In this document: piece after piece, positions 1 through 3,302 of the stretch | Layout: the number at the start of each line of letters is the position of its first letter | How positions within the stretch are numbered: position 1 is the stretch's first letter | IMG/VR virus record: IMGVR_UViG_3300020469_000099 | Span: 1 to 39,959 of that record | Strand: one strand, 5' to 3' | DNA from: a virus | DNA length: 39,959 bases | Made by a program: the position numbers and the translations under genes | Notes under the pieces: model-generated | Told to the model about the DNA's origin: nothing | The model's database searches: none | What the model saw: only the letters and a program-made list of their open reading frames with translations

Positions 1-291
1 TTGTTTCGAGTGTCAACAGATCCACTAACAGCAATCTTCAATAAAGACTTTGCAAGAATACAACTGTTCAGTGTAAGGAATAATCCACACGGGTGGGTTG
101 AAAGAAATATGGTTTACTCATCTACTGGTGTGCCACTAGAAGACTTTAGTACAGACTTTATTATCGACGAGATATCAAGCGTTGTAAACAAAGATGGTGA
201 TATCAGTATGGAAAAAGAGTTGTACTGGCGTGAGCAAGCAGAAACTATTATGAAGAAAGCAATAGTAAAGCTTATACAAAATGAAAAGTAA
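1..291 (+). CDS. Unknown protein, 5' end probably cut by window edge
   Basis: The frame is open from the first base and the first codon is TTG. The visible 96 residues therefore probably are the C-terminal part of a longer protein, although a TTG start cannot be excluded. The end of the protein is charged and helical (YWREQAETIMKKAIVKLIQ). No domain was recognised. It is on the + strand, upstream of the first tRNA-like element and the small-gene block, so it probably belongs to the same left-arm transcription unit. Real coding status is likely from the sustained open frame and ordinary amino-acid composition; the function is unknown. Confidence 0.55.
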   Translation: MFRVSTDPLTAIFNKDFARIQLFSVRNNPHGWVERNMVYSSTGVPLEDFSTDFIIDEISSVVNKDGDISMEKELYWREQAETIMKKAIVKLIQNEK

Positions 292-346
292 CATAGGCAT
301 GAGTGTGATGCTGTAACTCGATCTTAAAACGTACGAGTATGTTAAC

Positions 347-474
347 GGTGTGTATGGTAAGTGAGACAGTATCTCAACCACGGCAAAAGCAAAGGTAGTA
401 GACAGTGTCTCGACCACGGCGAGAGCAAAGGTAGTAGACAATATCTCAATGCAGGTTCGATTCCTGCCACACCA
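347..474 (+). ncRNA. tRNA-like element 1 (acceptor stem plus T-arm, oversize)
   Basis: The 3' part is a textbook tRNA T-arm: GCAGG, loop TTCGATT, CCTGC at 451-467, followed by CACACC and an A (468-474). CACACC pairs perfectly with GGTGTG at 347-352. The enclosed stretch is far too long for a tRNA (128 nt in total) and holds a 36-nt tandem repeat. I find no 5-bp stem with a 7-nt loop and U33 that would serve as an anticodon arm. Small hairpins of the type TGAGA-loop-TCTCA occur in the repeat units. It could be a decayed tRNA expanded by duplication, a tRNA with an insert, or a tRNA-mimic RNA. CCA is not encoded; the next bases are CTA. Confidence 0.5.
365..450 (+). repeat. 36-nt tandem repeat, 2.4 copies, inside tRNA-like element 1
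   Basis: Units start at 365, 401 and 437. The first two are full 36-nt copies that differ at only a few positions; the third stops after about 14 nt, where it meets the T-arm. Each unit begins GACA(G/A)T(A/G)TCTC, and the full ones contain ACCACGGC and end AGCAAAGGTAGTA. The copies are contiguous, with no spacers, so this is not a CRISPR array. Unit 2 contains a small GC-GAGA-GC hairpin with a GNRA-type loop. The repeat lies outside any convincing coding region. Confidence 0.85.
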
Positions 475-489
475 CTAAAATTAAATAAT

Positions 490-738
490 ATGAAAAACAA
501 AGACAGAGACAAGGATATCCTTAACTATATATTAGTTGAGCTTCGCAATCAGATAGTGTACAGTTACTATAAAGGTTCATACGCTAATGAGGTTGCTGAA
601 AAGACTATAGCAGACTATGTTATAGATACAAACTTAGTTACTAAAGAGTTCTTCCACGATCACTGGGCAGAAGATAAGACTAAGACTTTAATTAATTTAC
701 TTAACGATTTATACAAGAGATATGAAAGTGAAGCCTAG
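490..738 (+). CDS. Small protein of unknown function (82 aa)
   Basis: The start is set at the ATG at 490, just after the tRNA-like element. The frame is open further upstream but would run through the T-arm and the tandem repeat, which is not credible coding sequence. The product is charged and probably all-helical, beginning MKNKDRDKDILNYILVEL and ending with a YKRYE motif. The next but one gene (894-1265) has a similar YKRYE segment near its end, so the two may be distant paralogues. It overlaps the following gene by 17 nt. No known domain recognised; probably an early host-takeover or accessory protein by position. Confidence 0.65.
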   Translation: MKNKDRDKDILNYILVELRNQIVYSYYKGSYANEVAEKTIADYVIDTNLVTKEFFHDHWAEDKTKTLINLLNDLYKRYESEA

Positions 739-907
739 AAGCACACGCGTTGAGTGGAAAATACTAAATAAATACTATGGCGTTGATGAAATGTCTATAA
801 TGTTTAGAGACTACAGTAGTTATGCTACTATAAGAGAAGAAAATACTTTTCAGGAAGTATTCGATGAATTAGAAACAGTAATGAATATAAATTATGAAAA
901 CAGATAA
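722..907 (+). CDS. Small protein of unknown function (61 aa)
   Basis: Starts with ATG at 722 inside the end of the previous gene and itself overlaps the next gene by 14 nt, a packing typical of translationally coupled phage genes. The product starts MKVKPRSTRVEWKILNKYYG and has no recognised domain, signal peptide or membrane segment. It is part of the block of small left-arm genes. Assigned as real mainly because it fills the space between two overlapping neighbours in the same direction. Confidence 0.55.
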   Translation: MKVKPRSTRVEWKILNKYYGVDEMSIMFRDYSSYATIREENTFQEVFDELETVMNINYENR

Positions 908-1265
908 AAATTTTGATAAACTATTAAAAGTATTCTTCAAAGTTGGTTGGGAAAATATAACTCATCAACAAATACTATCACTCGCATACAAAGAAATTGA
1001 CAGGTTATTACCTATTGATGACTATTGGGAGTCAGACGAGCACTACAAAATCTCAAATCTTATTTACGACTGGTGTTTAGGTAACAGTATTATAACTCAA
1101 CACTGGTTAGATGATAAGCTTAAGCACTTAGACGATGAAAGACTAATGGAATTACTTCCAATACTATTTAAAAACTACAAAAGGCACATTAATAGTAAAG
1201 TAACTGAAGATTTAATGAACACATACAAGAGATATGAAAGATGTTACAATCAAAATACGAAGTAA
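894..1265 (+). CDS. Unknown protein, helical (123 aa)
   Basis: ATG at 894, overlapping the previous gene. The product has many charged and aromatic residues (WENITHQQIL; DYWESDEHYK; DWCLGNSIITQHWLDDKLKH) and looks like a compact helical globular protein. The stretch LMNTYKRYERC near the end resembles the end of the 490-738 product, which suggests paralogy. Its stop codon lies within the first copy of the 24-nt repeated element (1254-1277). No known family was recognised. Confidence 0.65.
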   Translation: MKTDKNFDKLLKVFFKVGWENITHQQILSLAYKEIDRLLPIDDYWESDEHYKISNLIYDWCLGNSIITQHWLDDKLKHLDDERLMELLPILFKNYKRHINSKVTEDLMNTYKRYERCYNQNTK

Positions 1266-1277
1266 TTCGGATAATAA
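1254..1277 (+). promoter_or_regulatory. 24-nt repeated intergenic element, copy 1
   Basis: One of three same-length copies (others at 2349 and 3279). All share AATACGAAG at the left and GGATAATAA at the right, with a variable 6-nt centre, here TAATTC. This copy can form CGAA-GTAA-TTCG, a 4-bp hairpin with a GNRA-type loop. Each copy straddles or directly follows a stop codon and precedes the next start by 14-24 nt. The GGATAATAA end resembles a -10 box, so promoter is one reading; an RNA processing, attenuation or translation signal is another. Confidence 0.5.
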
Positions 1278-1301
1278 ATATGAATATAAAAAATAATAAT
1301 T

Positions 1302-1568
1302 ATGGGACTAACTAAAGAACAATCACTATGGCCACGTAAGCGTGGTAATAAGTTTACCGATCAGGTATTCTGGAAAGACGAGCACGTAGGCCAAGTGTGG
1401 ACGTGTAAACCTGAAGATGCTAAACAGGTTGCGGCAACTAGAACTACAACACACTACAGAACTTTCGATCTCAATAAGTTTTTAACTGAAGTCGAGAGTG
1501 ATGATAATGAATTTGAGGTTGTTGGCCTTAAGTTTGAGGGTAATAACTTAACAGTTGTACTAAAATGA
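1302..1568 (+). CDS. Unknown protein (88 aa)
   Basis: First gene after repeated element copy 1, with an AT-rich leader and no Shine-Dalgarno box. The product begins MGLTKEQSLWPRKRGNKF, followed by what looks like a beta-rich middle (FWKDEHVGQVWTC) and a C-terminal strand pair (FEVVGLKFEGNNLTVVLK). It may be a small beta-barrel or nucleic-acid-binding fold, but no family was recognised. It overlaps the next gene by 4 nt (ATGA arrangement), indicating coupled translation. Confidence 0.65.
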   Translation: MGLTKEQSLWPRKRGNKFTDQVFWKDEHVGQVWTCKPEDAKQVAATRTTTHYRTFDLNKFLTEVESDDNEFEVVGLKFEGNNLTVVLK

Positions 1569-1753
1569 CAGGCATAGATGATATGGTGACTCGCGAGCAA
1601 TTAATCATGAGGATTTTTGCTCTTAAACGAGAGCTTATAGAAGCAAAAGAAAGAATTAACAGTTTAAACTATAGTAATGATAGGCTTAAACACTTAATTG
1701 AAGATTTAAATAATAGTATAAACAAATTAAGAAATGGAAAAGAAAATAAATGA
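1565..1753 (+). CDS. Small coiled-coil protein (62 aa)
   Basis: The ATG at 1565 overlaps the previous stop. Most of the protein, from about residue 10 to 57, is one predicted coiled coil with heptad-like hydrophobic spacing (REQLIMRIFALKRELIEAKE, then INSLNYSNDRLKHLIEDLNN). It has no membrane segment. A dimerising or adaptor role is possible, but the function cannot be inferred. It overlaps the next small gene by 20 nt. Confidence 0.6.
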   Translation: MTGIDDMVTREQLIMRIFALKRELIEAKERINSLNYSNDRLKHLIEDLNNSINKLRNGKENK

Positions 1754-1886
1754 GCACAGAGAAAGAGCTGCTCAAAGCCTAGAAGATATATCATATTGGA
1801 TGCGAAACAGTAGTATATCCTATAGAGAAACAGATTTAAAACGAGTATTCAAGGAAGTTATAAGCGACTATATGAAAAGCGTATAA
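1734..1886 (+). CDS. Small protein of unknown function (50 aa)
   Basis: ATG at 1734 within the end of the coiled-coil gene, stop TAA at 1884-1886. The product is charged and helical, MEKKINEHRERAAQSLEDIS followed by YWMRNSSISYRETDLKRVF, with no recognised family. It is supported by the overlap with its upstream neighbour, the shared direction, and the fact that it fills the gap up to the tRNA-like region. Short length keeps the confidence moderate. Confidence 0.5.
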   Translation: MEKKINEHRERAAQSLEDISYWMRNSSISYRETDLKRVFKEVISDYMKSV

Positions 1887-1896
1887 CTTTCTAAAC

Positions 1897-2047
1897 AACC
1901 AGGCAAGGTTGCGGTATACAAGTCCAGATCATAGTGTTAAGGTTTATTATCCATACCAATGACAAAAAATGGTCAACAGTAAGAATTGGGCCCCTTACAC
2001 CCGCATAGCTGCTGACGAGTACGAAGGTTCGATTCCTTCGCTGGTTA
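1897..2047 (+). ncRNA. tRNA-like element 2 (acceptor stem plus T-arm, oversize)
   Basis: A perfect T-arm, GAAGG-TTCGATT-CCTTC, lies at 2023-2039 and is followed by GCTGGTT and A. The last six bases, CTGGTT (2041-2046), pair with AACCAG at 1897-1902. The whole element would be 151 nt, about twice a tRNA. Near the 5' side, TTG-CGGTATA-CAA could be a D-like hairpin with a GG in its loop. No convincing anticodon arm was found in the remaining ~100 nt. Options are a tRNA with a large insert, a decayed tRNA, or two remnants fused. The bases after the discriminator are CTA. Confidence 0.4.
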
Positions 2048-2053
2048 CTAATA

Positions 2054-2141
2054 GAATGAGTCCTGATGGTAAAGCAACAGTTAGCGAGGGCCAACCTTCG
2101 ATTGGAACACGTTGTAGTGGGTTCGATTCCCACCTCATTCT
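2054..2141 (+). tRNA. tRNA-like element 3, 88 nt, possibly class II; amino acid not assigned
   Basis: A 7-bp acceptor stem (GAATGAG at 2054-2060 with CTCATTC at 2134-2140), a 2-nt spacer TC, a 3-bp D-stem CTG/CAG with a 12-nt loop starting ATGGTAA, and a perfect T-arm GTGGG-TTCGATT-CCCAC (2117-2133) are all at canonical places. The 36 nt between D- and T-arm fits a class II tRNA in length. I cannot find a proper anticodon arm: the best is GCCAA-CCTTCGA-TTGGA, with a first-pair mismatch and C instead of U33 (it would read as UUC), and it sits too far downstream. Discriminator T is followed by CTA rather than CCA. Confidence 0.5.
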
Positions 2142-3060: not shown

Positions 3061-3280
3061 TTTAAAAAGAATAAATGATTACCAATTAGGTAATATAAGA
3101 AAGTTTGATAAGTATAAAGAAAACTTAATGCTTATTGATGACAAAGTAATTAGCTACACAACTCACGTAGCTACTGTGAAACCTTTTGAGCTAATTCAAT
3201 GGCAAAGCTGGAGCCAAACAACTCAAAAACATATTAACTACGTAGCTAAAGAGCTAGGTTTAGAATTGATACGATCATAA
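3053..3280 (+). CDS. Unknown protein (75 aa)
   Basis: ATG at 3053 within the end of the zinc-ribbon gene. The product starts MNNLKRINDYQLGNIRKFDK and includes a likely strand pair (MLIDDKVISYTTHVATV) and an aromatic stretch (FELIQWQSWSQTTQ). No family recognised. The 3' end runs into repeated element copy 3. Confidence 0.6.
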   Translation: MNNLKRINDYQLGNIRKFDKYKENLMLIDDKVISYTTHVATVKPFELIQWQSWSQTTQKHINYVAKELGLELIRS

Positions 3281-3302
3281 TACGAAGAGTTTTGGATAAT
3301 AA
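3279..3302 (+). promoter_or_regulatory. 24-nt repeated intergenic element, copy 3
   Basis: Same ends as the other two copies, centre AGTTTT; the hairpin is CGAA-GAGT-TTTG. It overlaps the stop codon of the preceding gene, as copies 1 and 2 do, and lies 24 nt before the KTSC-domain gene. No fourth copy was seen by eye elsewhere in the window. Confidence 0.5.

Follow-up and report, generated by a model that had tools for sequence, protein, structure and literature searches.

What is an RNA that carries the T-arm and acceptor stem of a tRNA with no anticodon arm, and what would a phage use it for? The question is raised by a 39,959-base viral fragment from a marine phage (IMG/VR record IMGVR_UViG_3300020469_000099, positions 1 to 39,959), the whole of which is referred to here as the window. 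Its minus strand encodes a portal protein and the structural module, and its plus strand encodes a primase/helicase, a ribonucleotide reductase, and many small genes. Three such elements, numbered 1 to 3, lie in a tRNA-like array approximately 5 to 9 kb upstream of the primase (Table 1). No close DNA relative matching this region was found among cultured phages; by primase, the nearest cultured phage is Cellulophaga phage phi10:1, at 41% identity. A recurrent motif resembling AATACGARGNNNTTNGGATAATA precedes several genes (window positions 1253-1276, 2346-2371, and 3276-3302), occurs also in the related locus L002, and looks like a candidate early phage promoter.

Table 1. Coordinates of the tRNA-like elements, their parts, and the associated hairpin modules (window positions unless a locus is named)
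Feature	Position	Strand	Sequence or remark
Hairpin module	286-345	+	TAACATA...TATGTTA; directly upstream of element 1
Element 1	347-473	+	A73 at 474
Element 1, acceptor	347-352/468-473	+	GGTGTG/CACACC
Element 1, D-loop-like	353-361	+	TATGGTAAG
Element 1, P2-like helix	362-366/444-448	+	TGAGA/TCTCA; closes insert with 36-nt repeats
Element 1, T-arm	451-467	+	
Hairpin module	378-430		
Element 2 (family B)	1897-2046	+	GG D-loop-like
Element 2, acceptor	1897-1902/2041-2046	+	AACCAG/CTGGTT
Element 2, possible P2	1910-1914/2001-2005	+	TGCGG/CCGCA
Element 2, hairpin before T-arm	2010-2021	+	TGCT-GACG-AGTA
Element 2, T-arm	2022-2040	+	6-bp T-stem
Element 3	2054-2140	+	U73
Element 3, acceptor	2054-2060/2134-2140	+	GAATGAG/CTCATTC, 7 bp
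Element 3, D-loop-like	2061-2073	+	GG
Element 3, P2-like helix	2074-2078/2111-2115	+	GCAAC/GTTGT
Element 3, T-arm	2117-2133	+	
tmRNA-like element with hairpin module as P2 insert, L276	5545-5650		
Hairpin module, L163			

An earlier note on this DNA had reported three T-arms with matching acceptor stems of 6, 6, and 7 bp and no anticodon arm, and each of these observations was borne out. Exact GGTTCGATTCC sites occur only three times in the window, at 451-467, 2023-2039, and 2117-2133; GTTCGATTC was observed 3 times against an expectation of 0.11; the stems pair over the lengths claimed; and pairing is kept in relatives, as described below. ARAGORN found 0 tRNAs and 0 tmRNAs in the window, Rfam at the gathering threshold gave no tRNA or tmRNA match there, and neither program folded any of the three elements as a tRNA. 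A permissive Rfam scan of the window produced no tmRNA model match anywhere and one sub-threshold match only, to tRNA-Sec on element 3, which at 23.8 bits against a threshold of 47, and with no UCA loop or D-stem, was rejected. All three elements contain a D-loop bearing GG, missed in the earlier note, which stands without a D-stem; the P2-like helices of elements 1 and 3 had also escaped that note. The canonical D-stem, 5-bp anticodon stem, and 7-nucleotide loop with U33 were not found in elements 1 to 3, and the absent D-stem and anticodon loop, together with the ARAGORN and Rfam results, led to the rejection of both a canonical and an intron-bearing tRNA.

The acceptor stems were compared with dinucleotide shuffles. 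A stem of the observed length arose upstream of the T-arm in 10%, 64%, and 7% of shuffles for elements 1, 2, and 3, respectively, and, when a GG directly following the stem was also required, in 3.4%, 27%, and 2.6%. On the window sequence by itself, support for acceptor pairing is modest, and for element 2 it is weak; since a stem like that of element 2 is expected in 64% of shuffles, comparison with relatives was needed.

The nearest relative is IMGVR 3300025876_000027 (loci L002/L007), with a primase 94% identical to that of the window. Elements 1 and 2 lie there between the same genes, and element 3 is absent. The acceptor of element 1, GGTGTG/CACACC in the window, is GGCGTG/CACGCC in the relative, a compensatory change, and the P2-like helix reads CTTGAG/CTCAAG in L007, so that the letters differ and each version is able to pair. 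At the top of the T-stem of element 2, a C-G pair in the window corresponds to U-A in the relative, and the element's acceptor becomes AACTAG/CTAGTT in 24 other members of its family. It is these comparisons, with pairing conserved through compensatory changes, that establish the acceptor stems of elements 1 and 2.

A primase search yielded 80 loci, and among the 35 relatives with at least 7.5 kb upstream of the primase, 33 have T-arm elements, tRNAs being counted in, within the early region of small genes. The array frequently runs from a family C element to a family B element, then to one A, D, or E element, and then to tRNAs, which include true tRNA-Met and tRNA-Gln recognized by ARAGORN. 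Family C consists of minihelices of 39 to 42 nt with only an acceptor, a AATGGTTAA-like loop, and a T-arm, while families A, D, and E follow the pattern GGGNGTG ... CACNTCCA. The A/D/E element starts 5 to 6 nt past B in L026, L058, and L074; element 3 starts 7 nt past element 2, which is the A/D/E, or tmRNA-like, slot of the relatives. Element 1 occupies roughly the position of family C. Anticodon-less elements were also seen in other phage contigs, L268, L271, L267, and L270, with acceptors GGAGTG/CACTCC or GGGGTG/CACCCC; a GG D-loop and P2 are visible in L268 and L271 and are less clear in L267/L270.

The character of the A/D/E type, which we refer to as the main class, became evident from pattern scans of IMG/VR, one using the 3' half with U70 prescribed and the other using the 5' half and leaving positions 3 and 4 open. 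These scans gave 95 distinct short elements, or 92 after three called tRNA by ARAGORN were dropped. The 92 anticodon-less elements span 62 to 176 nt, with the approximately 40-nt minihelices coming on top of that number. Complete tmRNAs and standard tRNA-Ala genes fitted the patterns as well and were used as controls. Among the matches, L116 and L140 proved to be tRNA-Ala, ARAGORN calls L144 a tRNA-Pro, and the long ones are full tmRNAs. The plan of the elements is an acceptor, a D-loop that has GG and no stem, a helix of the P2 type that is hypervariable in sequence yet covaries, and a T-arm. In the 5' scan, where positions 3 and 70 were not fixed, G3.U70 was present in 32/33 elements and A73 in 33/33, counts that are not independent events because the phages are related; together, these two features make up the alanine identity. 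Acceptor pair 4-69 is C-G, A-U, G-C, or U-A, Watson-Crick throughout. P2 averages 5.5 bp over the 95 elements versus 3.1 for swapped arms and 2.9 for shuffled arms. Among 54 elements picked regardless of pairing, 88.9% of cells pair, versus 73.3% when shuffled and 39 to 48% when slid. Covariation is seen in this same set at acceptor pair 4-69 and at each of the seven P2 pairs.

These features, a G3.U70 acceptor, A73, a stemless GG D-loop, P2, and a T-arm, are those of the tRNA-like domain (TLD) of tmRNA. With the Rfam tmRNA model RF00023 (gathering score, 47), elements of this class scored 69.4, 64.7, 63.4, and 60.6 bits, in alignments that delete approximately 300 model positions corresponding to the mRNA-like part; family A scored 33 to 38 bits, with E values of about 1e-10 to 1e-13. 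The mRNA-like domain with its tag frame and pseudoknots was not found in the main class, at 62 to 176 nt. The D-loop carries the tmRNA letters UGGUUUUGAC, and some elements have CGGAC, likewise typical of tmRNA, ahead of the T-stem. A covariance model built from main-class elements also found family E and several family C elements, none of which had been used in building it. The main class is linked to tmRNA because full-size phage tmRNAs share its acceptor, GGGCGTG/CACGTCC, and carry a tag frame, read by eye as AKQNQFALAA* in L089. The G3.U70 class, with 92 distinct sequences, thus represents a phage-encoded TLD with the mRNA-like part absent. Full-length tmRNA-like genes of 240 to 410 nt were observed on viral contigs L089, L108, L177, L152, L198, and others, some of 242 nt with a tag frame ending in ALAA.

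Other origins within the tmRNA world were considered. A piece of a permuted tmRNA is excluded, as the 5' acceptor strand precedes the T-arm in every resolved element; matches to the tmRNA_permuted model were weak and below threshold, and one in L276 spans the junction of two tandem TLDs. A prophage attachment remnant of a host tmRNA is not favored, given that most relatives have the acceptor complete, with its two strands. BLAST for TLD-only copies in cultured phages matched 3' ends only; the inspected matches in S-CAM1, DLP6, Rb1, XacN1, and EfsSzw-1 are full-length or permuted tmRNAs, and the match in Microbacterium phage Gack, which ARAGORN reads as tRNA-Pro, is for that reason ambiguous.

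The window elements are related to this class in different ways. Element 1 shares with family A the T-arm GCAGG/CCTGC, the D-loop ATGGTAAG, and the 3' tail CCACTAAAA, and model R1 scores it at 28.7 bits (E = 8e-6), mainly from its 3' part. Its acceptor is one pair shorter than that of family A in the window and L007 alike, which is consistent with a derivative of the G3.U70 family whose G3.U70 pair was deleted on both strands, GG[G]CGTG / CACG[U]CC. It has U3-A70 rather than G3.U70, with A73 kept. Element 1 folds better than shuffles (z = -3.8), to which a 36-bp tandem repeat at 364-449, overlooked in the earlier note, contributes; its minimum-energy fold pairs the insert otherwise than in the proposed P2, and folding of the L007 homologue is no better than that of shuffles.

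Element 2 is, by sequence comparison, a member of a separate conserved family, B. The 26 sequences of this family are marked by a hairpin ahead of the T-arm, which had likewise been overlooked, in the forms TACC-GACG-GGTA (13), TACT-GACG-AGTA (6), TAC-GACG-GTA (3), TGCT-GACG-AGTA (2), and TACT-GACG-GGTA (2). A P2 in element 2 is plausible, and a perfect-helix test over family B was not significant (4.3 versus 3.8). By itself, element 2 folds no better than shuffles, and it has C3-G70, not G3.U70. Upstream of element 2 in the relative (L007:4730-4880), extra structured-looking sequence in which CTTACCACC pairs with GGTGGTAGG has no counterpart in the window. Element 3 has A3-U70 with U73, and its acceptor and U73 are identical to those of one phage tRNA-Cys; it folds with a z of -2.0 against shuffles. 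In elements 2 and 3, model R1 recovered nothing beyond the T-arm. The TLD layout can be drawn for elements 1 and 3, with the reservations noted for the element 1 fold and the family B P2. Because the window elements fall below the tmRNA model and have no G3.U70, their link to tmRNA lies in layout, synteny, and local similarity; they are probably derived members without alanine identity, and it is for these copies that function is least certain.

Short hairpin modules, for example, CCRCGGCGAAAGCAAAGG, GGTGAGGGATCGTTATGAACTC, GAATAAATAAC, GGAAGTGTATTA, and GGCTCGATGA, turn up repeatedly in many related phages, both within the P2 of different elements and between genes. In L276, another phage contig, a tmRNA-like element carries as its P2 insert a sequence almost identical to the module that directly precedes element 1. 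That contig has two tmRNA-like elements in tandem (L276:5388-5650), the first with an encoded CCA, and its binning as a Bacteroidetes genome hints at the host group.

Molecules of this general kind are known. Mycobacteriophage DS6A encodes a tmRNA TLD with little else (PMC4131195, PMC11915505). Compared by description, this CDS-less tmRNA is like the main class in being a phage-encoded TLD; the present elements differ in coming from a large group of related phages, in their hypervariable P2 insert, and in that a genome usually has a single G3.U70 copy accompanied by further anticodon-less elements, and the window copies differ further in having no G3.U70. Jakobid and oomycete mitochondrial tmRNAs and the approximately 65-bp plastid tmRNA of Mallomonadaceae likewise retain the tRNA-like part only, with no tag frame, but the mitochondrial forms are usually permuted, whereas the phage elements are unpermuted, viral, and several per genome. 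Full-length phage tmRNAs (Maribacter phage Panino, L089, L177, and Enterococcus phage EfsSzw-1) have similar acceptor, D-loop, and T-arm letters and differ in their tag frame, pseudoknots, and length of 240 to 410 nt. Mitochondrial t-elements, which provide tRNA punctuation, are also anticodon-less tRNA-like structures between genes. We know of no conserved charging identity in t-elements, whereas the main class keeps G3.U70 and A73.

Of the options raised in the earlier note, a family of tRNA-mimic RNAs was the right one. Insert-bearing tRNAs are not supported, there being no D-stem or anticodon loop to restore and 40-nt members having no insert; nor is simple decay supported for the family overall, in which acceptor, D-loop GG, T-arm, and P2 are kept with compensatory changes in dozens of phages. 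The note was right in kind, and in part only, as the identity of the main class with the tmRNA TLD had escaped it. Our preferred reading, held tentatively and with slightly less than even confidence, is that elements 1 to 3 are members or derivatives of a group of tRNA mimics without anticodons, encoded by phages and having the TLD as their core type, which may act as decoys of trans-translation. The elements adjoin genuine tRNA genes, and RNase P and RNase Z would excise them, with the host adding CCA. The acceptor would stack on the T-arm, with the P2 helix in place of the anticodon stem, as in the secondary structure established for the main class, and the stemless GG D-loop would dock on the T-loop. 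Elements with G3.U70 would be alanylated, and the RNAs would bind SmpB, and EF-Tu when charged, competing with host tmRNA for stalled ribosomes, such that trans-translation would be damped during infection. A TLD-only molecule similar to these, chargeable or not, is reported to inhibit tmRNA, perhaps through SmpB titration (PMC4131195, PMC11915505). Uncharged variants, such as element 1, could still titrate SmpB; having no G3.U70, the window elements may be uncharged SmpB decoys or may have drifted to another tRNA-binding protein.

Contrary to an SmpB decoy, a genome has several elements of different kinds, some of them only 40 nt long and with no P2, which is more than such a decoy would need. 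A broader proposal, rather unlikely, is that these marine phages, of Bacteroidota by inferred host, carry a mimic set, with an Ala-type TLD, a Gln-like 40-nt minihelix, Cys-like and A1-U72 acceptors, and exchangeable P2 modules, as an RNA toolkit engaging several tRNA-handling proteins and not SmpB alone.

We consider it unlikely that the elements are punctuation between small genes, of the mitochondrial tRNA or t-element type, at which RNase P and RNase Z would cleave a polycistronic phage transcript and leave an otherwise idle RNA. An acceptor/T-arm minihelix is sufficient as an RNase P substrate, and such 40-nt minihelices exist here; the elements lie on the coding strand, in narrow spaces between genes, and families B and C are mostly without alanine identity. 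Near-invariant G3.U70 and A73 and the conserved P2 of the main class would nevertheless go unexplained, and in most of the relatives scanned in full, model matches fall within the tRNA-type array rather than genome-wide. Tagless rescue, in which an alanyl-TLD with SmpB would accept the nascent chain and free stalled ribosomes untagged, as proposed for mitochondrial tmRNA, would account for retention of G3.U70 and A73. Some mitochondria keep a tmRNA with no tag frame together with SmpB, thought to help with incomplete mRNAs (PMC11915505), but the effect reported for TLD-only molecules is inhibition (PMC4131195), and the window elements have no alanine identity, making this distinctly unlikely. 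It is more doubtful still that the RNAs are decoys for other elbow or acceptor binders, such as aminoacyl-tRNA synthetases, CCA enzyme, modification enzymes, or tRNA-cutting defense nucleases. The tRNAs imitated would be Ala (families A/D/E), Gln-like with U1-A72 (family C), and Cys-like with U73 (element 3, by its tRNA-Cys acceptor), and most family C acceptors do start TGAC/GTCA, like tRNA-Gln of this phage group; however, the similarity is limited to the acceptor, anticodon-dependent synthetases would bind poorly, and there is no nuclease target loop. Finally, the elements could be functionless relics, left when insertion and recombination in a plastic array disrupted tRNA or tmRNA genes. 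This would fit the hypervariable inserts common to different elements, the shortened acceptors of elements 1 and 2, and the absence of element 3 from the nearest relative, but is very improbable against compensatory changes that preserve pairing in dozens of phages and the T-arm elements, tRNAs counted, of 33 of the 35 relatives.

A 2025 tmRNA database lists only nine standard-form tmRNAs with no coding sequence and 79 phage tmRNAs (PMC11915505). The 92 distinct elements found here were all missed by ARAGORN and lie partly below the Rfam cutoff. The main class is a known kind, the TLD-only tmRNA, and is far larger and more varied here than in the papers found by a search of open PubMed Central. 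Two unannotated T-arms adjoining annotated tRNAs were noticed in Cellulophaga phage phi4:1 (L207:1390-1660; KC821632), with possible acceptor strands TAGCAG/CTGCTA and GGAGTTA/TAACTCT, and this cultured phage could serve as a laboratory model. The P2 hairpin, strongly covarying yet hypervariable, may carry specificity. The elements suggest that blocking or diverting ribosome rescue may be a common tactic of marine phages, one that could be tested with short synthetic RNAs.
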